Shown here: one piece after another, positions 4,555 through 63,440 of the stretch
How the letters are laid out: each line of letters begins with the position of its first letter
How positions within the stretch are numbered: the stretch's first letter is position 1
NCBI GenBank assembly: GCA_903952435.1
Contig: CAJBFN010000003.1
Location: forward strand, 1-63,507
DNA from: an uncultured bacterium
GTDB lineage: Bacteria > Patescibacteriota > Saccharimonadia > Saccharimonadales > Saccharimonadaceae
Direction: 5' to 3'
DNA length: 63,507 nt
Translations under genes and position numbers: made by a program
The notes under the pieces: model-generated
The model's input: only the letters and a program-made list of their open reading frames with translations
Told to the model about the DNA's origin: nothing
The model's database searches: none

Positions 4555-5175
4555 CTAGGCAATATCCGTGTCATATAGTATATTCTGTTGCATCCAAACA
4601 TACATTGCAATACCAGCCGCCACGCCGACGTTAACAGACCTGGTCGAGCCAAATTGCTCGATCATAACTGTTTTCGCGGCCGCTTTTTTCATGTCTTCGC
4701 TTAGGCCTGGACCCTCACCGCCAAAGACTAATACTGATTTAGCTGGCAAAATAGTTTTTGATAAAGGCAAGGCGCCATCAATAATATCAACTGCAATAAT
4801 TTCACGCTTTTCAAGGTTCATAGCGGCCACAAAATCGTCAACCGTTTCGTGATGTAAAATATTCATATATCTATCTGTCACCATCGCCCCACGTCGATTC
4901 CAGTGGCGCTTGCCAATAATGTGCACAGTTTCAACATTAAAGGCATTAGCCGCCCTGACAATCGTGCCAATATTAAGATCGTGTTGCCAATTTTCAATCG
5001 CGACGTGCAAAGAAGCCCGATTTTTATCTAAATCAGCCTTAATCGCCTCGACTGTCCAATAACGGTATTTATCCAACACATTTCGCCTGTCACCATTCAA
5101 TAATAGCTCCGGGTCATATATCCCATCATTTGGCCAAGGTTTTTTATATGGCCCAACACCAATCTTGTCATTCAT
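4555..5175 (-). CDS. SpoU/TrmH-family RNA 2'-O-methyltransferase
   Basis: A 206-residue SPOUT methylase that transfers methyl from AdoMet to a ribose in tRNA or rRNA; the exact target cannot be told. Motif 1 (NIGTIVRAANAF near residue 70), motif 2 (VFGGEGPGLSEDM near 150) and motif 3 (STRSVNVGVAAGIAMYVW near 178) are all present and form the trefoil-knot cofactor site. It lies between family members B and C but has its own leaderless-type promoter and lacks their leader, so it is probably an unrelated neighbour. A second, different SpoU gene lies at 28.5 kb. Confidence 0.9.
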   Translation of the reverse strand: MNDKIGVGPYKKPWPNDGIYDPELLLNGDRRNVLDKYRYWTVEAIKADLDKNRASLHVAIENWQHDLNIGTIVRAANAFNVETVHIIGKRHWNRRGAMVTDRYMNILHHETVDDFVAAMNLEKREIIAVDIIDGALPLSKTILPAKSVLVFGGEGPGLSEDMKKAAAKTVMIEQFGSTRSVNVGVAAGIAMYVWMQQNILYDTDIA

Positions 5176-21084: not shown

Positions 21085-21783
21085 CTACGGACTTGGCAAC
21101 ATCTGACCGGGGCATTTCGATAAAACACCATTAATTGAATCTTTTTCAGATTGAGTAACCCAAAGACTATACTTTTGCTTGACGGCAATTTGTCGAGACA
21201 CATACTGGCAGCGAAAAGGCTTATTAGATGGCAGCCAAGCTGACGCATCACCATCGCTTTTTTCCATATTCGCTTTGCCATCAACCGCTAAAAGCTCTAA
21301 TGGATCATTAGCTAATTTTAATCTTTCGGTCGAAGTCATCTGCCAAGCGCCAGTTCGCCAGGCGTCCGCCAAGGCTACGACATGATCAATTTGTATATCG
21401 CCACTAGTATCAGCGCCTCTTTTAAAATTAATTGCCCTTCCGGTATATGGATCGGCTAATTTGCCGCTAACAACTTCACATTTGTCATTTACTGCAGTAT
21501 CAACTAAATCTCGATTTAATATAATATTACGAGTATCACAACCGCCTACGGATATCCAGTCTGAGCCAAATTTATCTCTAGAATAATCAGCTTGCATTGC
21601 ACTATCTCTTACAATTAATCTATCTAAAGCATCCTTTGCCGGACTGGTGACTATTTTATCAATATTACCTATCGGCCTATTCACTTCAACAGAATTTGGA
21701 GAATTACCGATGATTATAAAAATTAAAGATAAAAGTAATATAAAAAAAGCCAAAATTCGCCTTTTACGCAATATAGGTGACAT
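21085..21783 (-). CDS. Secreted or membrane-anchored HNH nuclease, DUF1524 family
   Basis: About 232 residues. A basic N-terminus and one hydrophobic segment (about 10-27) form a signal peptide or anchor. The rest matches secreted HNH nucleases with a DUF1524/GmrSD-C-like fold: GCDTRNIIL, DPYTG, catalytic IDHVVALADAWRTGA, NDPLELLAVDG and the closing ASAWLPSN...RQIAVKQKY. It probably degrades external DNA for nucleotide uptake, important for an organism without nucleotide synthesis. The start is uncertain: a GTG five codons upstream also opens the frame and neither has a strong SD. Confidence 0.85.
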   Translation of the reverse strand: MSPILRKRRILAFFILLLSLIFIIIGNSPNSVEVNRPIGNIDKIVTSPAKDALDRLIVRDSAMQADYSRDKFGSDWISVGGCDTRNIILNRDLVDTAVNDKCEVVSGKLADPYTGRAINFKRGADTSGDIQIDHVVALADAWRTGAWQMTSTERLKLANDPLELLAVDGKANMEKSDGDASAWLPSNKPFRCQYVSRQIAVKQKYSLWVTQSEKDSINGVLSKCPGQMLPSP

Positions 21784-22707: not shown

Positions 22708-25224
22708 ATGCAAAATGTCCCAAGATTAATCGACCAATTTATTCCCGAAAATTACAAACTAGAGTTAGAGCTAGATCGCACCAAAAGATTATTTTTTGGA
22801 GCAGTTATAATTATCGGCGAAAAAAAATCAAAAAACATTATATTACATAGTAAAGACTTAATAATTGAATCTGTTTTTATTGATAATAAAAAATCTAATT
22901 TTACTTATGGAGACAACGATGAGCTTATTATCGATGCGGGTAAAAATGAAGTTGAAAAATGCCAAATAAAAATAAATTATAAGAGCAAAATTACCGACTC
23001 AATGCACGGCCTCTATCCATGCTATTACGAGCATAATGGTTTTAAAAAAGAGCTTTTAGCGACCCAATTTGAAAGTCACCATGCCAGGGAGGTTTTTCCT
23101 TGTATTGATGAGCCAGCCGCTAAAGCTACATTTGACCTAACCCTGTCAACTGAGGCTGAGGTCACAGTGCTCGGCAATATGCCAATCAAAAAACAAACCA
23201 AAAAAGACGAAAAACTAATCACAACTTTTGAGACAACACCAAAAATGAGTAGCTACTTATTAGCCTGGGTGGTTGGCGAGCTTCATAAAAAAACCGCCCA
23301 CACTAAAAGTGGCGTCGAAGTTAATATTTGGGCCACTCTAGCACAACCAAAAAACAGCCTAGACTTTGCACTAGATATTGCTACCCGATCAATCGATTTT
23401 TTTGATAATTATTTTGACACACCATATCCGCTAACAAAAGCCGACCACGTCGCCCTGCCTGATTTTTCATCAGGAGCAATGGAAAATTGGGGTCTAATCA
23501 CATACCGCGAAACAGCATTATTAGCAGACCCAAGTAAAACATCAATCTCAAGCAAACGATATATCGCCACAGTTATCGCTCACGAACTTAGCCATCAATG
23601 GTTTGGCAATCTAGTAACTATGCAATGGTGGAACGATTTGTGGCTAAATGAAAGTTTTGCGTCGCTAGTCGAATACGACGCAGTTGATAATTTAGAGCCA
23701 GACTGGAATTGCTGGTTAGATTTTGCAACTTTTGATAGCTTAATGGCATTAAAACGTGACAGTCTTGATGGCGTTCAGCCAGTCCAAACCGAAGTTCATC
23801 ACCCAGATGAGATCGGCTCACTATTTGACGGTGCTATCGTGTACTGTAAAGGCGCGCGCTTACTGCAAATGGTGCGCGAATATATCGGCGAAAGCGCTTT
23901 CCGTGAAGGCCTAAAAAAATATTTCAAAAAGTATGCCTACAAAAATACTGTAGCCAACGAATTATGGAAAGAACTAGACAAAGCCAGCGGCAAAGACGTA
24001 ACAAATCTAATGAATACCTGGATATCACAACCAGGATTTCCAGTTATCCATGCAAGCCTAAATGATAATGAATTAATTTTAAGACAAGAAAAACTATCCA
24101 GTAATCGCGATCAAGAAAACGCTATGTTATGGCCAATACCACTAAATTCGAACTGTAAAGAATTGCCAGATATACTAGGAACAAAGTCATTAACTAAAAA
24201 AATCAGCAATAAAAAACCCATAAGACTTAACATCGGCAGTTATTCTCATTTTATAACGCACTACGATGACAAGATGCTACACGCAATAATCCAAGAGTTG
24301 AAGTCTGGCAAGCTATCAACAATCGACAGACTACAGCTATTAAATGAACAATCACTTTTAGCGAATGCTGGAATAATAAGCTATGCCGGACTTATTCCGC
24401 TGCTTGAATCCTATAAAGATGAAACCGAGGAGCCGGTTTGGGATATAATTGCAATCACGATTGGCGAACTAAAGAAATTCGTTTATAACAACGAACTAGC
24501 CGAGAAAAAACTAAAAAATCTAGCTAAATCGCTGGCAGTAAAACAATACTCAAAGCTTGGACTGCACGGTAAAATAAATGAGCCAGAAACCGACAAAAAA
24601 TTAAGGCTCTTAATCCTAGGCCTGATGATATATTCAGAAGATAAAACCGTTATTTCAGATGTATTATCGGTATTTAACAACTCCAAAATAAATAAGCTTG
24701 ACCCAGACTTAAGAAGCTCGATAATATCAGCGGCCGTTTATCACACTGAAGATGAAAAAATATCAAAAGATTTAATTAAGACTTATAAAAAAACCTCGGT
24801 AGACCTAAAGCAAGACATTGTTTTTGGCTTAACTTCATCTAAAAATAGTAATTTTATAGATAGCCTATTAAAAATGATTAAAGATAAAGAAATAGTTAAG
24901 CCGCAAGACACTTTCAGATGGTTTGCCTATTTAATACGCAATAAATACGGCCGCGATCAAACCTGGGAATGGATGCAAGAAAATTGGAACTGGATAGAAG
25001 AAACGTTCGGCGGCGATAAAAGCTACGATGATTACCCAAAATATGCAGCCAGCTCATTGATGACGCAAAAACAACTCGACGAATATAAAAAGTTCTTTAA
25101 ACCATTAAAGTCAAACCCGGCGCTAACGCGAGCTATCAATATGGGAATAAATGAAATCACAAACCGAGTCAACCTAATCAATAAAGATGGCGATTTAGTT
25201 ATTAAAAAATTGCTAGACCTCTAA
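22708..25224 (+). CDS. pepN: M1-family aminopeptidase (aminopeptidase N type)
   Basis: 838 residues. It removes N-terminal amino acids from peptides in the cytoplasm, feeding an auxotroph. Substrate-recognition SGAMENWG near 257 and zinc site HELSHQWFGN with the third ligand in LWLNESFASLVEY near 295-325 are intact; a C-terminal ERAP1-like helical domain follows (about 520-838). The start MQNVPRL was chosen over an upstream ATG because a -10 lies seven bases before it. It overlaps the 3' end of rnhB-yraN by 12 bases on the opposite strand. Confidence 0.93.
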   Translation: MQNVPRLIDQFIPENYKLELELDRTKRLFFGAVIIIGEKKSKNIILHSKDLIIESVFIDNKKSNFTYGDNDELIIDAGKNEVEKCQIKINYKSKITDSMHGLYPCYYEHNGFKKELLATQFESHHAREVFPCIDEPAAKATFDLTLSTEAEVTVLGNMPIKKQTKKDEKLITTFETTPKMSSYLLAWVVGELHKKTAHTKSGVEVNIWATLAQPKNSLDFALDIATRSIDFFDNYFDTPYPLTKADHVALPDFSSGAMENWGLITYRETALLADPSKTSISSKRYIATVIAHELSHQWFGNLVTMQWWNDLWLNESFASLVEYDAVDNLEPDWNCWLDFATFDSLMALKRDSLDGVQPVQTEVHHPDEIGSLFDGAIVYCKGARLLQMVREYIGESAFREGLKKYFKKYAYKNTVANELWKELDKASGKDVTNLMNTWISQPGFPVIHASLNDNELILRQEKLSSNRDQENAMLWPIPLNSNCKELPDILGTKSLTKKISNKKPIRLNIGSYSHFITHYDDKMLHAIIQELKSGKLSTIDRLQLLNEQSLLANAGIISYAGLIPLLESYKDETEEPVWDIIAITIGELKKFVYNNELAEKKLKNLAKSLAVKQYSKLGLHGKINEPETDKKLRLLILGLMIYSEDKTVISDVLSVFNNSKINKLDPDLRSSIISAAVYHTEDEKISKDLIKTYKKTSVDLKQDIVFGLTSSKNSNFIDSLLKMIKDKEIVKPQDTFRWFAYLIRNKYGRDQTWEWMQENWNWIEETFGGDKSYDDYPKYAASSLMTQKQLDEYKKFFKPLKSNPALTRAINMGINEITNRVNLINKDGDLVIKKLLDL

Positions 25225-26121
25225 AAAATCGTCAATTTTTGGCGGCTGGCCGCTGACCGATGCTACTGATAGACGCAAGTTCGTATTAGTTATTTTGTTA
25301 TTCAAGGCATAAAAATTAGCCGCAAATTTCATCTGGTTTAACTTTTTGCTAGTTATGGCATCAAGCCCGCCGCCCTGATTAGCATTCTTGCGGTATTTTA
25401 CCTCTGTAAAGTAAATTATGTCCTTAAGTTTTGAAACTATATCAATTTCACAATATTTCGTCTTCCAATTTCGATTTAGTATTTTATGTTTTTGCTTCAT
25501 TAAATAATCAGCCACCACATCTTCAGCATTATCACCTATTTGCTTGGTCGTAGTCGGTTTCTGATATTTTTTAAGCGGGGCAAAAGACAAGCGATGCAGC
25601 GGCGTGACGCCTAATTTATCAATTGCCGTGCTGTGAACGGCTGTGCCATAACCGACATGACTTTCAAATCTGTAGCCTGGATGTTTTTTATCCTGGCTGG
25701 CCATAAAATTATCACGCGCCACTTTTGCAACAATAGAAGCCGCCGAAACGCTTGGAATTAACAGGTCGGCCTTTTTCATAGTCGTCACAAATTTACCCTT
25801 GCTGGTATCTTTCAAAAAATTAATCGTGCCGTCAATAATAATTTCATGATATGGCGTTTTTATCTGCTGCACTGCTAGTTTTGTAGCTAAAACTAACGCT
25901 GCCGACAAGCCAATTTTGTCAATTTCCGACGCCTTGACCCAACCCAAGCCAATACCGGCGGCTTTTTCGCGAATCTCAATATCTAATTTATCGCGCTGTT
26001 TTTTGGTAAGTTTTTTACTGTCAGTTAAACCTTCAATATTAGCGCCGCCCAAAACAACCGCCCCAACCACCAACGGCCCAGCCCAAGACCCGCGCCCAAC
26101 TTCATCAATACCAAGTATCAT
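25213..26121 (-). CDS. rnhB: Ribonuclease HII fused to a YraN (UPF0102) nuclease-like domain
   Basis: 302 residues in two parts. Residues 1-190 are RNase HII, which removes ribonucleotides and RNA-DNA hybrids: GIDEVGRGSWAGPL carries the DE pair, DSKKLT and the later VSAASIVAKVARD are conserved. Residues about 195-302 are a YraN/UPF0102 restriction-fold domain (GDNAEDVVADYL, CEIDIVSKLKDIIYFTEVKYR). The two are neighbours in many bacteria; here they are one polypeptide. An extended -10 TGT-TATGAT ends six bases before the ATG. Confidence 0.93.
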   Translation of the reverse strand: MILGIDEVGRGSWAGPLVVGAVVLGGANIEGLTDSKKLTKKQRDKLDIEIREKAAGIGLGWVKASEIDKIGLSAALVLATKLAVQQIKTPYHEIIIDGTINFLKDTSKGKFVTTMKKADLLIPSVSAASIVAKVARDNFMASQDKKHPGYRFESHVGYGTAVHSTAIDKLGVTPLHRLSFAPLKKYQKPTTTKQIGDNAEDVVADYLMKQKHKILNRNWKTKYCEIDIVSKLKDIIYFTEVKYRKNANQGGGLDAITSKKLNQMKFAANFYALNNKITNTNLRLSVASVSGQPPKIDDFLEV

Positions 26122-39874: not shown

Positions 39875-41116
39875 TTACCAGCTTATAACAACTCGACCGC
39901 TATCAGTATTAGTGTCGGCTACGGCAAATTGATTTGTTGCAGATGGGAGTATATAAGAACCGCCACCTTCGCCAATATTAGTCCAAGCGCCTCCATATTC
40001 TAAACCGCTGCTGCCACTACTGCCGCCGCTATAACCACCACCAGAGCCAGCAGTTGTATTACAATAACCTACATAATCCGCTACTGCACCGCCGCCGAAA
40101 CCTCCTGGTTGATAGGAATATGCAGCATCACTGCCAACAGCCTGACCGCCAGCGCCACCCTGAATAAAACCAAAGCCGCCAGCCCCAACTCCAGCATAAT
40201 ATCCATCTGGATCTTCTATGGGATTACTATAATACATACTATCATTACCGCCTGACGTATAAAAACCGCCACCGCCACCGCCACATTCTGCAATCGGTGC
40301 CCCATTACCATCCATACCGGCATTATAGCCGCTGCCGTTACCAGAGCTATTTATATTAACAACCTGGCCGCCTCGTCCAGTACCGGAGCCCTGTCCACCA
40401 CCGCCACCGCCAGCCACTATCATTGGAGTAGACGTTGTATAATTTGATCCTAATGCTACAAAAGTACCGCCACCGCCACCAGGAAAATAATAGCCATAAT
40501 CACTAGAAGGTGAATAAGGATGCTGTCCGACCAATATAGATAAGACCTGACCAGAGCTTATGGAAAAATCAGCACTAACATAAGCACCCTTGCCGCCAAC
40601 AGAATCATAATCATAACCACCCTGAGCACCTTTGGCGGTTACATTAATTTTTGTAACACCAGCAGGAACAGTCCAATTCACAATACTGCCAGTATAATTA
40701 AATTCTGCAAAGTTACTGGATGCAGTAATTGACGGAGAGGTTGATTCCGTAACTGAACCAATAGACGAACCTCCGTTTGAAGTACTAATAGTAAATCTTT
40801 GTGGGTCATTATTAGTATTAATATAACTGTCAAGATCAACCCCGGAAGATAATTTTAAACAATACTTATTATCTGCTTTCGGATTAGATGGACAATTATT
40901 TGCATCTAATTTGGTAGGATAAGACCCATACTCAGCTTGATAAAGTTGCAATGTCGTCTTTGCATTGTTCAGGTCACTCTGTAGAACAGCGGTTTTTGCT
41001 CGTTGAGTAATGCCACTATATGAAACTACAGATATAGCAGCCAATATACCTATGACCACAATCACCACTAATAATTCGACTATAGTAAATCCTCGAGAAG
41101 ATTTAATTTTAAACAT
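39875..41116 (-). CDS. Type IV prepilin fused to a large glycine-rich domain
   Basis: 413 residues. Prepilin signal SSRGFTIVELLVVIVVIGIL (6-25) has the G/F cleavage site and Glu5 of the mature protein. A pilin-like helical stalk (to about 125) follows. From about 137 on comes a glycine-rich module: YTGSIVNWTVPAGVTKINVT, AKGAQGG, then many Gly runs, matching the ALK/LTK-type glycine-rich domain in pattern. It is likely a surface pilin or minor tip pilin acting in adhesion. PilB at 26.8 kb could assemble it. Confidence 0.85.
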   Translation of the reverse strand: MFKIKSSRGFTIVELLVVIVVIGILAAISVVSYSGITQRAKTAVLQSDLNNAKTTLQLYQAEYGSYPTKLDANNCPSNPKADNKYCLKLSSGVDLDSYINTNNDPQRFTISTSNGGSSIGSVTESTSPSITASSNFAEFNYTGSIVNWTVPAGVTKINVTAKGAQGGYDYDSVGGKGAYVSADFSISSGQVLSILVGQHPYSPSSDYGYYFPGGGGGTFVALGSNYTTSTPMIVAGGGGGGQGSGTGRGGQVVNINSSGNGSGYNAGMDGNGAPIAECGGGGGGFYTSGGNDSMYYSNPIEDPDGYYAGVGAGGFGFIQGGAGGQAVGSDAAYSYQPGGFGGGAVADYVGYCNTTAGSGGGYSGGSSGSSGLEYGGAWTNIGEGGGSYILPSATNQFAVADTNTDSGRVVISW

Positions 41117-47556: not shown

Positions 47557-48210
47557 CTAAATCACTCCTTGTTTATTTATTTCGCGTGTCAACTCGGCAA
47601 ATACGCCAGCTGGATCCTCTGTATTACTTAAAGCGCCGCCCACATTTAAAACATTAACTCCGCCTTGAGCTAAAGTAAACGCATTATCAAGTGATACGCC
47701 ACCATCCCAACCAATTTCAATTTCTGGATTTATGGACCTAATCAGACGAACTTTTTCAAGTTGCATTAGACTAGCCGTTCCACCATAATGGCCCAGATCA
47801 CCCGAAAATACCAAAACATGATCAGCCGCTTTAATAGCATTTTCAATCATTGATGGCACAGTTGGTTTTAAAACCGCTATGCCTGCTTTGATGCCAGATT
47901 TTTTAATCTTTTCCAAAAGCGGCAAAATCATATTTTCACCATTTTCAGCATGAAGCGTAATCATATGCGGCCCAAGCGCAATCAATCTCTCAATATATTC
48001 AGCCGGCCTGCTAACCATAGCATGTATATCAACCACCCATTCACGCGGCCACCATAAATCATCAACTGAAAACAATAAAACCGGTGCAAACTCACCGTCA
48101 CTAACATCAATATGAACTCGCTGAGCGAAAGGCCTGTATCTATCAACTGCAGCCTTATATTGTTCGGCTGTTTCGACGGTTATACTAGGGGCGATTACAC
48201 TAGTCATCAA
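47557..48210 (-). CDS. rpe: Ribulose-phosphate 3-epimerase
   Basis: 217 residues, TIM barrel interconverting ribulose 5-phosphate and xylulose 5-phosphate. HIDVSDGEFAPVLLF near 34 corresponds to the family HxDxMDGxFVPN but is diverged; HAENGENMILPLLEKIKKSGIKAGIAV near 88, and EIGWDGGVSLDNA near 172 are present. Its start overlaps the stop of rpiB by four bases. The divergence leaves some room for a different pentose or hexose phosphate. Confidence 0.85.
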   Translation of the reverse strand: MMTSVIAPSITVETAEQYKAAVDRYRPFAQRVHIDVSDGEFAPVLLFSVDDLWWPREWVVDIHAMVSRPAEYIERLIALGPHMITLHAENGENMILPLLEKIKKSGIKAGIAVLKPTVPSMIENAIKAADHVLVFSGDLGHYGGTASLMQLEKVRLIRSINPEIEIGWDGGVSLDNAFTLAQGGVNVLNVGGALSNTEDPAGVFAELTREINKQGVI

Positions 48211-48653
48211 AACTCATCTATCTGTTCATTGCGACGTTTAAAACGAGCCGCACCAGCGAACGGAGTATTTAGCCAAGTTTCAATTACACCCTGCCACTCA
48301 TCATTCCCATCAAAGATGCGAGATGGTAAACATAAAATATTGCTTTCATTATCATTTCTAGTCATTTTTGCCTCATATGCGTCCCATATCACACTAGCCC
48401 TAATACCGCGGAACCGGTTAGCCGCCATAGCCATACCTTGGCCGCCTCCACATAATAAAATTGCCCGCGGATCTTTGTCTTGGCTGCCAATAACTTTTAA
48501 CGCCGCCATCTGAGCAAACTCTGGAAAATCATCATTTGGGTCTAATGTCTTATCCCCAACATCTTCAACCAAGTAATTATGTTTTGCGAGATAAGCAAAA
48601 ACCTTTTCCTTTAAATGAAACCCCTGATGATCGCTACCAATGAATATTATCAT
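48207..48653 (-). CDS. rpiB: Ribose-5-phosphate isomerase B (RpiB/LacAB family)
   Basis: 148 residues. FIGSDHQGFHLKEKVFAYL at the start carries the phosphate-binding and Asp residues, and ALLCGGGQGMAMAANRFRGIRAS near 65 is the family signature, with Gly where catalytic Cys is common in other members (CGTGIG is CGGGQG here, Cys kept). First gene of the sugar-phosphate operon, with TATACT six bases before the ATG. Confidence 0.9.
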   Translation of the reverse strand: MIIFIGSDHQGFHLKEKVFAYLAKHNYLVEDVGDKTLDPNDDFPEFAQMAALKVIGSQDKDPRAILLCGGGQGMAMAANRFRGIRASVIWDAYEAKMTRNDNESNILCLPSRIFDGNDEWQGVIETWLNTPFAGAARFKRRNEQIDEF

Positions 48654-58119: not shown

Positions 58120-59184
58120 CTATTCGTCACTTCGCGGTTTATCAAGCAATAATGGATCAACGCCAGGATCCGAGCCAGCGATTTTAATAACATCTTTGTC
58201 AACTTTTCCTAATTCTTTATGGGCAGCATTATAGTGATTAACTGTTGTACTTAGCGAATTACCAAGCTTTTGCATAAACTCGTCAAATCTGCCAATATGC
58301 TGGCCTAATTGACCAACACGGATCTGAATATCCTTGGCTTGTTCTTCAATCTGTAAACTGCGCAGACCCTGCAAAACAGTCTGTAAATACGCCATAAAGC
58401 TAGTTGGACTGACAATTATAACCTTTTTATCCCTAAATGCATATTCAATCAAATCCCTGGCGCTTGAACCGGTGCCGACATCGCCAATCAGCAAATCGTA
58501 ATACAGTGACTCGCTAGGAATAAACATAAATGCAAAATCCATAGTTTTTTCAGCCGGCCTAATATATTTACTAGTTTCATCAATTCTAAGCTTTAAATCC
58601 GTGCGAACTTTGGCTAGTAGCTTTTCGCGCTCGGACTTACTGTGTTCGCCAACCATACGATTATAATTTTCAAGGCTAAATTTGCTATCAATCGGAAGTA
58701 TTTGACCTTTATCTAAAAACACAACCGCATCTACAATTTCACCGTCCTTAAATTTATACTGCATCTGATAATTTTTAGACGGCAATATATTGTCCAAAAC
58801 CGATTCCAAATAATATTCACCAAAAACTCCACGCTGTTTTGGATTTTGTAAAACATTTTGCAAAGTCTTCAATTCATCGGCCACATCAACCACGCGCTTA
58901 TTTGTTTCGTCTAGCTTTGCCAAGCGCTGCGTAACATCACTAACTAACTTCGCGCTCTCGCTAAGCTGTTTTTGCATCGATGCCTGCATTGAATTGTTAT
59001 TATTATCTAATTTATCGCCAACGACTTGCTGTAAATTATTAATGCCCCGTGATAATTCGATCACATCACTTTTTAATAATTCAACCGCACTTGAGCTTTT
59101 TAACTCTTTCAAACGCTGGTTTAAGATATAAATTACAATCCCAAAACCCAATAAAATCGCCACCAAGATAATTGCCTGTTCCAT
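58120..59184 (-). CDS. rmuC: RmuC-family protein
   Basis: 354 residues. N-terminal membrane segment (about 3-20), a coiled coil (about 25-105), then the RmuC nuclease-like domain (GVFGEYYLESVLDNILPSKNYQMQ near 120, LPIDSKFSLENYNRM near 162, VIIVSPTSFMAYLQTV near 253). RmuC proteins limit DNA inversion and rearrangement and are predicted nucleases. TATACT lies six bases before the ATG. Confidence 0.93.
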   Translation of the reverse strand: MEQAIILVAILLGFGIVIYILNQRLKELKSSSAVELLKSDVIELSRGINNLQQVVGDKLDNNNNSMQASMQKQLSESAKLVSDVTQRLAKLDETNKRVVDVADELKTLQNVLQNPKQRGVFGEYYLESVLDNILPSKNYQMQYKFKDGEIVDAVVFLDKGQILPIDSKFSLENYNRMVGEHSKSEREKLLAKVRTDLKLRIDETSKYIRPAEKTMDFAFMFIPSESLYYDLLIGDVGTGSSARDLIEYAFRDKKVIIVSPTSFMAYLQTVLQGLRSLQIEEQAKDIQIRVGQLGQHIGRFDEFMQKLGNSLSTTVNHYNAAHKELGKVDKDVIKIAGSDPGVDPLLLDKPRSDE

Positions 59185-59199: not shown

Positions 59200-59637
59200 T
59201 TATAAACCGACGACGACACGGGCTGCGATGACGATCAAAACAATCGCAATCAGAGCAAAAATCAGCCTTAAATGATGAATTAACCCCGAAAACAAAACAT
59301 AGGCCATCGAAAACAGCATCATACACCAAATCGCAATCTCGAACCAAACCAACCCATCAAACCAGACAGCCAAACCCCACAAAACAGCGCCAGTGGACAC
59401 GGCGATAATCAACGGCTGAACCATTTTTTGCCAAACCATAGCCGAAATACCAGTCACGGCGGTTAATATCATGGCAATACCACTAGCTGCCGCCAATGGC
59501 AATAATGGCCTAAATGCTAAGTAAATTAAGATATAAACTACGCCTAAAATCCCGCCAATAACTGCGTTTTTCCAAATCGAATAAGATGAGCTATTTAATT
59601 GATTAAAATCTACACTATTGCTTATAATCTGTGCCAT
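59200..59637 (-). CDS. Uncharacterised polytopic membrane protein
   Basis: 145 residues with about five hydrophobic segments and short loops; no recognised motif. A GGAGC SD lies eight bases before the ATG. It lies between heliorhodopsin and rmuC on the same strand; the 68-base gap to heliorhodopsin leaves co-transcription possible. Confidence 0.65.
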   Translation of the reverse strand: MAQIISNSVDFNQLNSSSYSIWKNAVIGGILGVVYILIYLAFRPLLPLAAASGIAMILTAVTGISAMVWQKMVQPLIIAVSTGAVLWGLAVWFDGLVWFEIAIWCMMLFSMAYVLFSGLIHHLRLIFALIAIVLIVIAARVVVGL

Positions 59638-59705: not shown

Positions 59706-60470
59706 TTACGGGCGAAGTGTGCCAGCAAATACTTGCCAGGCCAACAAAGATTTAGCAACTAAACTTAAAACAATATAGGCAAACTCGCCATAAAGATAGT
59801 TTTTCCAATTACCAATCTTTTTGTATTGCAAAATCATATTAATCGCAAAACAGTTAAAGAAGATAAAAATCGAAACAAATATCCAATAAACGAAATCTGG
59901 CGCAGCCTTGCCGTTGTCGGCGCTCATCCAAAAATAAAATGCAATAACAACCCAAGGTATTGCCCCCGCTAAACAACCAATAATATAACTTAACCAGCTA
60001 GTCTTTTTTGTTGTCTGATTGTGAACTTCCATGACCAAGCCCATAAGATTCATAACAGAGGTTAATGCAAATATCATAACCAAACTCATTGCATCATAAA
60101 CACCAACCAACAAGGCTATTGCAACCATCATTATACTGGCCGATATCGAATATTCTATCCAGCGAGCTTTATTAATGCCCTTTTCAAGATCCGAATTGTA
60201 TTTTTTATTATAAACTGTGGCAATTATTAAGTGCGCAGTAGCCGAAAGGAAGAAAAATATCGCAATTAACATCGGCAAGGGCAAATCAAATAAAACCTTT
60301 GTCGCCGGCTCTAGATGAAAAGTAGCCTCGTTAAATTTTAAAAACGTCCCATTTATCGGCAGTGTAAAAACTTTGCTTAAAATTAATATTGCGATACCCT
60401 GGGCAAGATGAAGACCGCCCATTACTAAGTTAAAATTCCTTAACCTGTTTTTTGTGATTGGTTTACTCAT
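59706..60470 (-). CDS. Heliorhodopsin
   Basis: 254 residues, seven membrane segments, a retinal-binding photoreceptor with inverted topology relative to type-1 rhodopsins. The last helix has LSLVAKSLLAWQVFAGTL, placing the Schiff-base Lys at 240. The third helix has RWIEYSISASIMM with the counterion Glu at 106. His21 and His80 match the two buried His of the family; these positions are within one or two of the reference protein. No retinal or carotenoid synthesis gene is in the window, so retinal may come from outside. It diverges from VKOR, and both have leaderless-type promoters. Confidence 0.9.
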   Translation of the reverse strand: MSKPITKNRLRNFNLVMGGLHLAQGIAILILSKVFTLPINGTFLKFNEATFHLEPATKVLFDLPLPMLIAIFFFLSATAHLIIATVYNKKYNSDLEKGINKARWIEYSISASIMMVAIALLVGVYDAMSLVMIFALTSVMNLMGLVMEVHNQTTKKTSWLSYIIGCLAGAIPWVVIAFYFWMSADNGKAAPDFVYWIFVSIFIFFNCFAINMILQYKKIGNWKNYLYGEFAYIVLSLVAKSLLAWQVFAGTLRP

Positions 60471-60476
60471 AACTTA

Positions 60477-60482
60477 AATATA
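60477..60482 (-). promoter_or_regulatory. -10 box for a leaderless heliorhodopsin mRNA
   Basis: TATATT, six bases before the ATG, no SD; 22 bases from the divergent VKOR -10. Confidence 0.6.
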
Positions 60483-60504: not shown

Positions 60505-60510
60505 TATAAT
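60505..60510 (+). promoter_or_regulatory. Extended -10 for a leaderless VKOR mRNA
   Basis: TGA-TATAAT, six bases before the ATG, no SD. Confidence 0.65.
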
Positions 60511-60516
60511 TAAATT

Positions 60517-61110
60517 ATGATAAACTTAAATTTCTTCAAGAACCACACCAATCAAAAAAACCTTTATATGACCATGACAATATCAGCCATCGTAGGACTT
60601 ATCGCCTCTTTTTGGCAGATGATCGAGAAAATCGCCATTTTAACAGCCCCAACCGAGCCGCTGTCTTGCAATATCAATGCCATCTTCAACTGCTCAAACA
60701 TCTTGAATGTCTGGCAAAGTTCAGTCTTTGGATTCCCAAATTCATTAATGTGTATCGTTTTCTTTGTAATAATACTGGCTATTGGCCTGGTCGGCTGGAC
60801 TGGCGGCACAATTAATAAAAACCTACGCCTAACGCTGCAAGCTTTCACGCTATTTTTCATAGGTTTTGGTTTTTGGTATTTATGGCAAAGTATTTTTACT
60901 GTCGGCGCTATCTGTATATTTTGCTTATTCTGCTACGCAGCCGTTTTAGCAATCAGCTTTACCTGGCTACGAATCAACCAGCACGACTTGCCTATCAGTA
61001 AAAATGCTAAAAAATTTATTGACGCTACGGTCGCCGATGGCTCAGATTTATTCATATGGCTATCGATTGCTTTAATAATTATTGGCGAAATGGTTTGGCA
61101 ATTCGCCTAA
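60517..61110 (+). CDS. Vitamin K epoxide reductase (VKOR) family protein
   Basis: 197 residues, four to five membrane segments. Loop cysteines C51 and C59 (SCNINAIFNCS) and the active CxxC C133-C136 (GAICIFCLFCY) are present, with FGFPNSLMC between them. VKOR re-oxidises a DsbA-type partner and passes electrons to quinone, making disulfides in exported proteins. No thioredoxin domain is fused and no DsbA is adjacent. The GyrI-like gene follows 11 bases later. Confidence 0.92.
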   Translation: MINLNFFKNHTNQKNLYMTMTISAIVGLIASFWQMIEKIAILTAPTEPLSCNINAIFNCSNILNVWQSSVFGFPNSLMCIVFFVIILAIGLVGWTGGTINKNLRLTLQAFTLFFIGFGFWYLWQSIFTVGAICIFCLFCYAAVLAISFTWLRINQHDLPISKNAKKFIDATVADGSDLFIWLSIALIIIGEMVWQFA

Positions 61111-61636: not shown

Positions 61637-61990
61637 TTATTCAACTGTGATATGGATACCGTTTTTATCGATATCGATTTGTTTGCTTGGCGAACTGACA
61701 ACGTGACTGTCGCCAAGCGCTACAACAGCGATTGCGCCCAAAGCAAATATAGCCAAGATGACCGATAATATCTTCCAAACTATATTATGAAGAGATAAAA
61801 CCGATAAACCGGCTGCGATTATAAATAATGGCCATAAACCAACAATACTAGACCAATTTATATGCGCAAAACCAAAATTACTAGCAATTAACATAGAACC
61901 AATCAGAATCAGCAATAATCCCCAAAAAATCCGACCCACGCCCCACTCTTTTGTTTTTTTGCTATCGGTCATTTTAAAATTATTTTCCAT
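61637..61990 (-). CDS. LiaI/DUF5668-like membrane protein
   Basis: 117 residues: three hydrophobic segments, the first two forming the RIFWGLLLILIGSMLIASNF...WPLFIIAAGLSVL pattern of LiaI-LiaF-like/DUF5668 proteins, followed by a short polar tail. GGGGGT precedes the ATG, which lies within the last codons of the PspC gene (11-base overlap). Envelope-stress role by analogy. Confidence 0.8.
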   Translation of the reverse strand: MENNFKMTDSKKTKEWGVGRIFWGLLLILIGSMLIASNFGFAHINWSSIVGLWPLFIIAAGLSVLSLHNIVWKILSVILAIFALGAIAVVALGDSHVVSSPSKQIDIDKNGIHITVE

Positions 61991-62441
61991 TTTTTACCCC
62001 CTTAGTAAAAACAAAGATGCCAGCAAAAATCAATATAACTGGCCAAATAAATTCCCATTTAAATATTCCCCAAGCAGGAAAAAGTTGCGCCAGTAACAGC
62101 CAACTACCAAAAATAACCAGACCACAACCAAGATAATTTCGAATCCGACTAGCCGATCCATTAGATTGCATTTCGTGGCCTAAATCTTTAATCTTCTGGC
62201 TAATTTCTTCACCATCAACCGAAGCGTGAGCCTTAATCGTTGCGCCATCATCAACTGGCAATATTATTGCCAAAATAATATAAAGTAAAATCGCAGCGCC
62301 ACCAGTAACAAATATGCCTACAACAAAAATAACCCTTATTAGAGTTACATCAAAATCAAAATAATCCGCCAACCCAGCACAAACACCAGCTATTCGCCCC
62401 TGTTTTGGTGATCGATACAACGGCCTTTTTATATTAACCAT
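61980..62441 (-). CDS. PspC-domain protein with DUF5668-like membrane segments
   Basis: 153 residues. PspC domain (about 5-62): LYRSPKQGRIAGVCAGLADYFDFDVTLIRVIFVVG, then two further membrane segments with NYLGCGLVIFGSWLLLAQLFPAW. PspC proteins sense or respond to membrane stress. AGGAGATTTT precedes the ATG. Two-gene operon with the LiaI-like protein. Confidence 0.88.
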   Translation of the reverse strand: MVNIKRPLYRSPKQGRIAGVCAGLADYFDFDVTLIRVIFVVGIFVTGGAAILLYIILAIILPVDDGATIKAHASVDGEEISQKIKDLGHEMQSNGSASRIRNYLGCGLVIFGSWLLLAQLFPAWGIFKWEFIWPVILIFAGIFVFTKGVKNGK

Positions 62442-62494
62442 AAAATCTCCTATTTATACATATTATTCTACTACTAATAATAGTAAAACTTCAA

Positions 62495-63214
62495 CTATAA
62501 ACCTGTTGTGTGAAATATATTACCTATAATGTAAGTTACCGACATTGCAATCATACCGCCAACGATAACCCTTATAGTAGATTTACGAATATTTGACCCG
62601 CTTGCCCTAGCACTCAGAACCCCAGCGATGGCCAAAGCAACAACAACCGCCCCAAACGTTACGGGAACGGAAAAGTCGCCAACAGGTAGCATAATAGCTA
62701 CTAGCGGTATCAATGAACCTACAATAAACGAACTGGCCGAGGCTATCATAGAAACCCATGGATTTGTCAGATGTTTTGGATCAATATGCAAATCGACATC
62801 AGCGTGAACGGCTAGTGCATCGGCTTTTGTCAGTTCTTTCGCAACCGAATTAGCAGTTTTAAGATCTAAGCCCTCAGCCTTATAGATCGAAACTAAATCA
62901 TCCAACTCTTCTTTTGGATGATTTTTTAGGTCTAGTTTTTCTTCATTCAACAAAGATTCTTCTGTGTCGCGCTGTGTGCTAACCGAAATATATTCACCAA
63001 CCGCCATGGACATTGCGCCAGCAATAATCCCAGCCAACCCGGCTGTTAATATGGCCGACTTGGATTGGGCGGCCTCTGCAACACCAATAACCAAACCGGC
63101 AATAGACACTATACCGTCATTAGCGCCCAAAACCGCAGCTCGCAGACGGTTCTCTTTTTTGTTTAGATTAACACCGCTATTTGAATTAGTCCAAGACCGT
63201 TGGTATTTATGCAT
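62495..63214 (-). CDS. VIT1/CCC1-family transporter
   Basis: 239 residues with a start chosen at MHKYQRSW. LRAAVLGANDGIVSIAGLVIGVAEA near 27, GAMSMAVGEYISVSTQRD near 69, a cytoplasmic helical region (about 85-140) and three C-terminal membrane segments are typical of VIT family proteins that move iron or manganese ions. An upstream ATG would overlap the small PspC gene. No clear SD; TATTTT lies five bases before the ATG. Confidence 0.85.
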   Translation of the reverse strand: MHKYQRSWTNSNSGVNLNKKENRLRAAVLGANDGIVSIAGLVIGVAEAAQSKSAILTAGLAGIIAGAMSMAVGEYISVSTQRDTEESLLNEEKLDLKNHPKEELDDLVSIYKAEGLDLKTANSVAKELTKADALAVHADVDLHIDPKHLTNPWVSMIASASSFIVGSLIPLVAIMLPVGDFSVPVTFGAVVVALAIAGVLSARASGSNIRKSTIRVIVGGMIAMSVTYIIGNIFHTTGL

Positions 63215-63230
63215 AGTCAAAAATACGGTT

Positions 63231-63440
63231 CTATTTTTTAATTTTAGCGCCGCCACTAACTGGCATAACAAGAATTAGTATCAAATAAATCCAAAATCCA
63301 GCACTGCCCAAGAAAGCACCAACAACGAATAATACCCTCATCAAAGTCACGTCCATATCGAAATAATCTGCCAATCCAGCACAAACTCCGGCTATTTTTC
63401 CATCTTTAGGAATTCTATACAAGGTTTTTTTCGTTGCCAT
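63231..63440 (-). CDS. Small PspC-domain protein
   Basis: 69 residues, a bare PspC domain: LYRIPKDGKIAGVCAGLADYFDMDVTLMRVLFVVG followed by one membrane segment and a short basic end. Very similar to the N-terminus of the 62 kb PspC protein, indicating a duplication on either side of the VIT gene. AGGGGACTAATT precedes the ATG. Confidence 0.88.
   Translation of the reverse strand: MATKKTLYRIPKDGKIAGVCAGLADYFDMDVTLMRVLFVVGAFLGSAGFWIYLILILVMPVSGGAKIKK

Follow-up and report, generated by a model that had tools for sequence, protein, structure and literature searches.

The open reading frame at positions 59,706 to 60,470 of the window, namely the whole 63,507-nucleotide stretch of DNA under analysis, raises the question of whether it encodes a working heliorhodopsin (HeR) and, if so, from where the protein obtains its retinal and with which neighbors it acts. 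The frame is intact, lies on the minus strand, begins with ATG, and encodes a HeR of 254 amino acids. It is the single HeR of the window genome, which is 686 kb in length and 97.9% complete. The gene and the codons for its key residues are as follows.

59706..60470, minus strand: HeR (PF18761, 334 bits; NCBIfam HeR, 337 bits; fold match to 6is6, TM 0.90)
60408..60410, minus strand: codon for H21, invariant in 36 HeRs
60231..60233, minus strand: codon for H80, invariant in 36 HeRs
60153..60155, minus strand: codon for E106, the Schiff-base counterion, equivalent to E108 of TaHeR (E108D column of 7clj; invariant in 36 HeRs)
59751..59753, minus strand: codon for K240, the retinal Schiff-base lysine (SLVAK, TM7; 6is6/7clj alignment; invariant in 36 HeRs)

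Identity of the protein and its supply of retinal

The sequence matches Pfam family PF18761 over its full length, with a score of 334 bits against a cut-off of 26.7 (E-value 5e-100), and the NCBIfam HeR equivalog model NF038020 with 337 bits, the cut-off there being 100. The best sequence match among solved structures, as found with phmmer, is TaHeR (6is6, 285 bits). The nearest HeRs in named genomes belong to Candidatus Saccharibacteria/Patescibacteria, one of them a Ca. Saccharimonas, and identity to the HeRs of the same genus is ∼70-83%. These scores and relatives bear out the initial annotation, which had described a HeR in a Saccharibacteria-like genome, divergent from a VKOR gene.

In the alignment to 6is6 and 7clj, K240 falls within the segment SLVAKS of TM7, and E106 occupies the column that is Asp in 7clj, the E108D mutant entry of TaHeR. 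Both the SxxxK retinal lysine motif of TM7 (S236-K240) and the glutamate counterion of TM3 are present, and when 36 HeRs from named genomes are aligned, no variation is seen at H21, H80, E106, S236, or K240. The AlphaFold2 model, with a pLDDT of 91.6, displays the seven-helix HeR fold including the ECL1 strands, and it superimposes onto 6is6 with a TM score of 0.90 and a deviation of 2.1 Å. The corresponding TM scores are ∼0.85 for 48C12 and ∼0.6 for type-1 rhodopsins, such that the close folds are HeRs only. Because the model fits 6is6 in this manner, the lysine and the glutamate are positioned within the retinal pocket rather than outside of it, and the earlier claim of an intact retinal lysine, counterion, and pair of conserved histidines holds. 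The window gene is a genuine HeR with an intact retinal site. By homology, it would be expected to share the inverted topology, retinal binding, and slow, non-pumping photocycle of the family. A second match to PF18761 in the window genome (C1:22165, E-value 8e-4) was rejected as a chance one, given that its frame is interrupted by two stops and differs from that of the genes it overlaps.

The occurrence of HeR in Saccharimonadia is not new, 80 having been counted in that class (Chiriac et al. 2022, PMC9166423), and the window gene is ordinary for its group of very small, episymbiotic bacteria. It shares with those proteins the family, the host class, and the SLVAK motif of TM7, and no categorical difference is observed. 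The fold, counterion, histidine pair, and lysine are likewise those of TaHeR (6is6, 7u55; TM 0.90) and 48C12 (6su3, 6uh3; TM 0.85), to which the window HeR is 56% and 42% identical, respectively, although the genomic neighbors differ.

Genes for retinal synthesis and for a type-1 rhodopsin were sought throughout the genome, the initial annotation having reported no retinal synthesis genes in the window. Phytoene synthase (SQS_PSY, PF00494) and a CrtI-like oxidase (Amino_oxidase, PF01593) are absent genome-wide, the same searches being positive in seven and 14 control genomes, respectively. Blh (PF15461) gave no match genome-wide in a search without a positive control, three other HeR-bearing genomes also giving none. 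A type-1 rhodopsin (Bac_rhodopsin, PF01036) likewise gave no match genome-wide, and since this search also had no working positive control, both of these absences are weaker. The lack first noted in the window thus extends to the whole genome, with these differences in strength.

Because the genome has no phytoene synthase, CrtI-like oxidase, or type-1 rhodopsin, the retinal would be scavenged from outside. Most likely the apoprotein is loaded with retinal of the host or of a neighboring microbe; a retinal-forming enzyme of a novel kind in the window genome is possible. Retinal scavenging by rhodopsin-bearing Saccharibacteria has been proposed and is backed by retinal uptake assays, and retinal binding by HeR is fast (PMC9296517). 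The SacR proteins, which are type-1 rhodopsins of Saccharibacteria, resemble the window HeR in their use of external retinal without retinal synthesis, but they are proton pumps of the type that gave no match, in a search without a positive control, in the window genome (PMC9296517).

The window gene very probably encodes a canonical, non-pumping HeR photoreceptor with borrowed retinal, next to which VKOR and the 145-residue membrane protein (p145) came to lie through a deletion and not as partners. According to this scheme, retinal from the host or a neighbor would load the apoprotein, light would drive the slow photocycle, and the resulting conformational change would be passed to a partner protein. 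As such, the gene represents one more retinal-scavenging HeR in an already documented group.

HeR copies were also observed in other settings. One in a Saccharibacteria MAG (UBA8109; L179:6001-6652) carries a frameshift and many stops, and is either a pseudogene or an assembly error. Two reside on plasmids, one (NZ_CP141705.1:4149-4922) on a mobilizable Lactococcus petauri plasmid of 10.5 kb and the other (CP069395.1:72588-73325) on a Chloroflexota plasmid of 180 kb; their identities to the window HeR are 50% and 51%, respectively. None was found on phages.

The genes flanking the heliorhodopsin

The features surrounding the HeR gene are listed below.

58120..59184, minus strand: RmuC (PF02646)
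59200..59637, minus strand: p145, a 145-aa membrane protein; a genus-wide neighbor of rmuC, not specific to HeR
60477..60482, minus strand: TATATT, a -10-like box separated by 6 nt from the HeR ATG, of the leaderless type, with the same spacing at other window starts
60505..60510, plus strand: TATAAT, a -10-like box separated by 6 nt from the VKOR ATG
60517..61110, plus strand: VKOR-family thiol oxidoreductase (PF07884), the second paralog of the window genome; a neighbor only, a link to HeR not being supported

The HeR and VKOR genes diverge from a gap of 46 bp. It had been suggested that a leaderless promoter in front of HeR, close to that of VKOR, placed light sensing and thiol oxidation under joint control. 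The boxes themselves are real, each ending 6 nt before its ATG, and they are 22 bp apart. The pattern, however, is generic. A TATAAT-like box lies 4-9 nt before the ATG at 10 of the 37 window starts that have an upstream gap, and in seven of these the distance is exactly 6 nt. Examples of the latter on the minus strand include the genes at 4555-5175, 21085-21783, 25213-26121, 39875-41116, 48207-48653, and 59706-60470 (HeR), and on the plus strand that at 60517-61110 (VKOR). Leaderless transcripts seem to be common in the window genome. A two-hexamer promoter scan gave no site in the HeR/VKOR gap, and its count for the region was 7 versus 6.8 in shuffles.

The same proposal can be judged from gene order. 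A divergent, jointly controlled module, in which light sensing is coupled to disulfide formation, would account for the proximity of the two boxes within the gap and for the presence of the same divergent pair in G021, and redox genes are known to be enriched near HeRs in other phyla (PMC8612252). The pair is limited, however, to two of the 15 HeR-bearing genomes of the genus, namely the window genome and G021. Close orthologs of the window VKOR occur only in G016 and G021, the other VKOR of the window genome being located at G000:C2:46058. Note that G016, which has no HeR, shares this VKOR paralog and has ABC-ABC-PAP2-p145-RmuC after it, with the ABC pair situated between VKOR and PAP2. Because this HeR-less genome keeps the longer arrangement, the HeR/VKOR adjacency reads as an accident of deletion; the simplest reading is that it is a by-product of the loss of the ABC exporter pair in the window and G021 lineages. 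Given also the generic boxes and the result of the promoter scan, joint control of HeR and VKOR is very improbable.

On the far side of VKOR, positions 61637-63440 encode PspC and LiaF/LiaI-like membrane proteins, of the envelope stress type, arranged around a 258-aa membrane protein. This cluster adjoins VKOR and a GyrI-like protein.

The suggestion that p145 might be a partner of HeR fared no better. The two genes are on the same strand with a gap of 68 bp, and p145, a small membrane protein with no assigned function, would be a convenient target for a signal from HeR, either itself or together with RmuC further downstream. Yet a search of 24 same-genus genomes gave p145 in 21, at least 10 of them without HeR, and it adjoins rmuC in the loci read; the p145-RmuC pair is thus genus-wide, both with and without HeR. 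Additionally, p145 is merely 26-45% identical between genomes, and the two-hexamer scan places a separate promoter-like site in the HeR-p145 gap. An action of HeR on p145 or RmuC is considered very unlikely.

A different set of neighbors surrounds HeR in the sister genomes G005, G007, and G026. Two ABC half-transporters lie directly upstream of it there and a PAP2 lipid phosphatase directly downstream, all on one strand. The complete order in G005 is RmuC-p145-PAP2-HeR-ABC-ABC, and contig ends cut the genes beyond PAP2 in G007 and G026. Loci with the ABC exporter pair, HeR, and PAP2 are L092:8183-13034, L075, and L078. The order RmuC-p145-PAP2-ABC-ABC occurs without HeR in G008, G012, and G016. 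The ABC proteins of the sister loci match MsbA/Smd-type exporters. The window locus has neither the ABC pair nor PAP2, and the best ABC match in its own genome is 31% identical. A move of the pair to another site in the genome was rejected, as only paralogs of at most 31% identity are present. We propose that the ABC pair and PAP2 were lost at the window locus, an event that would have left HeR alone with its own promoter.

In another bacterium, a HeR has been shown to modulate a heterodimeric ABC exporter in response to light (OcHeR-OmrDE; Nat Commun 2024, PMC11109279). The sister genomes resemble that system in their gene order, HeR coming after the two genes of a heterodimeric ABC exporter and sharing their strand; the window genome differs in having lost the adjacent pair. 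Because the ABC pair persists without HeR, a functional link between exporter and HeR in the sister genomes is circumstantial.

HeR is absent from 13 of the 28 genomes of the genus, several of which are at least 96% complete, and for this reason its role appears to be dispensable. That the window HeR is a non-functional relic of the ABC and PAP2 loss is highly improbable: its ancestral neighbors are gone and many sister genomes do without the gene, but the reading frame is full length, every pocket residue is kept, and the identity to same-genus HeRs is still ∼70-83%. The preferred reading thus remains that of a canonical photoreceptor with borrowed retinal. The comparison removes the tempting VKOR and p145 lead and offers two others in relatives, namely the ABC exporter-HeR-PAP2 operon and an order-wide HeR-msrA pair.

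Divergent homologues at an order-wide locus

Among 150 genomes of the order, 67 contain HeR-family matches above the family cut-off, and of the 74 HeR-family loci with a readable neighborhood, 32 share a common slot. On one side of it are secA, hpf, serS, a PD-(D/E)XK nuclease, rsmE, and rumA or a HAD hydrolase, and on the other msrA, DUF427, lysS, greA, and proS (secA, hpf, serS, lysS, greA, and proS were named by eye from sequence, the remainder by Pfam). In ∼10 slot loci, msrA is on the same strand as HeR and either overlaps it or is at most 47 bp away; direct HeR-msrA neighbors are seen at L032, L051, L052, L054, L056, L058, L063, L067, L068, and L101. The pair agrees with the role in oxidative stress that has been proposed for HeRs, and a literature search returned no paper containing both "heliorhodopsin" and "methionine sulfoxide reductase." The window genome has no MsrA, which was consequently rejected as a partner of the window HeR. 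That the window genome also carries a degenerate slot HeR was likewise rejected, the profile of the divergent lineage matching only the known HeR.

The retinal lysine is replaced in 13 of the 32 slot proteins, by R in four, Q in three, S in two, L in two, A in one, and T in one. Outside the slot it is kept in 41 of 42 HeRs, the exception being L053 (V), itself in a related neighborhood. The counterion glutamate is also replaced in most of the lysine-less homologues, and several divergent proteins that have the lysine carry Asp or another residue in place of the glutamate. Intact and conserved reading frames without the lysine are L049, L051, L053, L056, L059, L060, L062, L063, L065, L067, L068, L101, L102, and L103.

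A profile-profile alignment of the canonical and divergent sets extends over 248 columns with a probability of 100 and an E-value of 5e-55, and is ungapped through TM3 and TM7. The profile of the divergent set matches only HeR structures in the PDB. On the basis of this alignment and these matches, the divergent slot proteins are, as judged from sequence, HeR homologues in which the retinal site has changed, rather than members of another family brought in by misalignment. The tree, which is unrooted, places them on one side of a branch with support of 100/96, and the slot HeRs that have the lysine fall between them and all others. The window HeR groups with the non-slot set, composed of HeRs of archaea, Chloroflexota, Actinomycetota, and other Patescibacteria. 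Type-1 rhodopsins carry the retinal lysine, and thus the more likely direction is that HeR entered the slot and subsequently lost its retinal site.

The protein encoded at L049:8882-9703 scores 192 bits, above the NCBIfam HeR cut-off, even though its lysine and glutamate are both Ser, and it would therefore be named a heliorhodopsin automatically; L067 and L101 score below that cut-off. Earlier HeR surveys, including that of PMC9166423, required the TM7 lysine motif, and because of this the lysine-less slot homologues would have fallen outside of them. No report of a lysine-less HeR lineage in a conserved slot was found in the literature.

On balance, we favor the view that the slot harbors a vertically kept HeR lineage at the fixed locus serS-PD(D/E)XK-rsmE-rumA/HAD-HeR-msrA-DUF427, which in many families is without the counterion and often without the lysine. 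Still a conserved membrane protein and commonly in line with msrA, the slot protein would descend from a photoreceptor but act independently of retinal, perhaps in redox repair, and it coexists in several genomes with a canonical HeR like that of the window. If the lysine-less proteins are truly free of retinal, it may be asked what a HeR does once it is blind to light, and this eroding lineage beside msrA is the part worth following. A slot protein is accompanied by a HeR at another locus in G096, G100, G129, G131, and G136.
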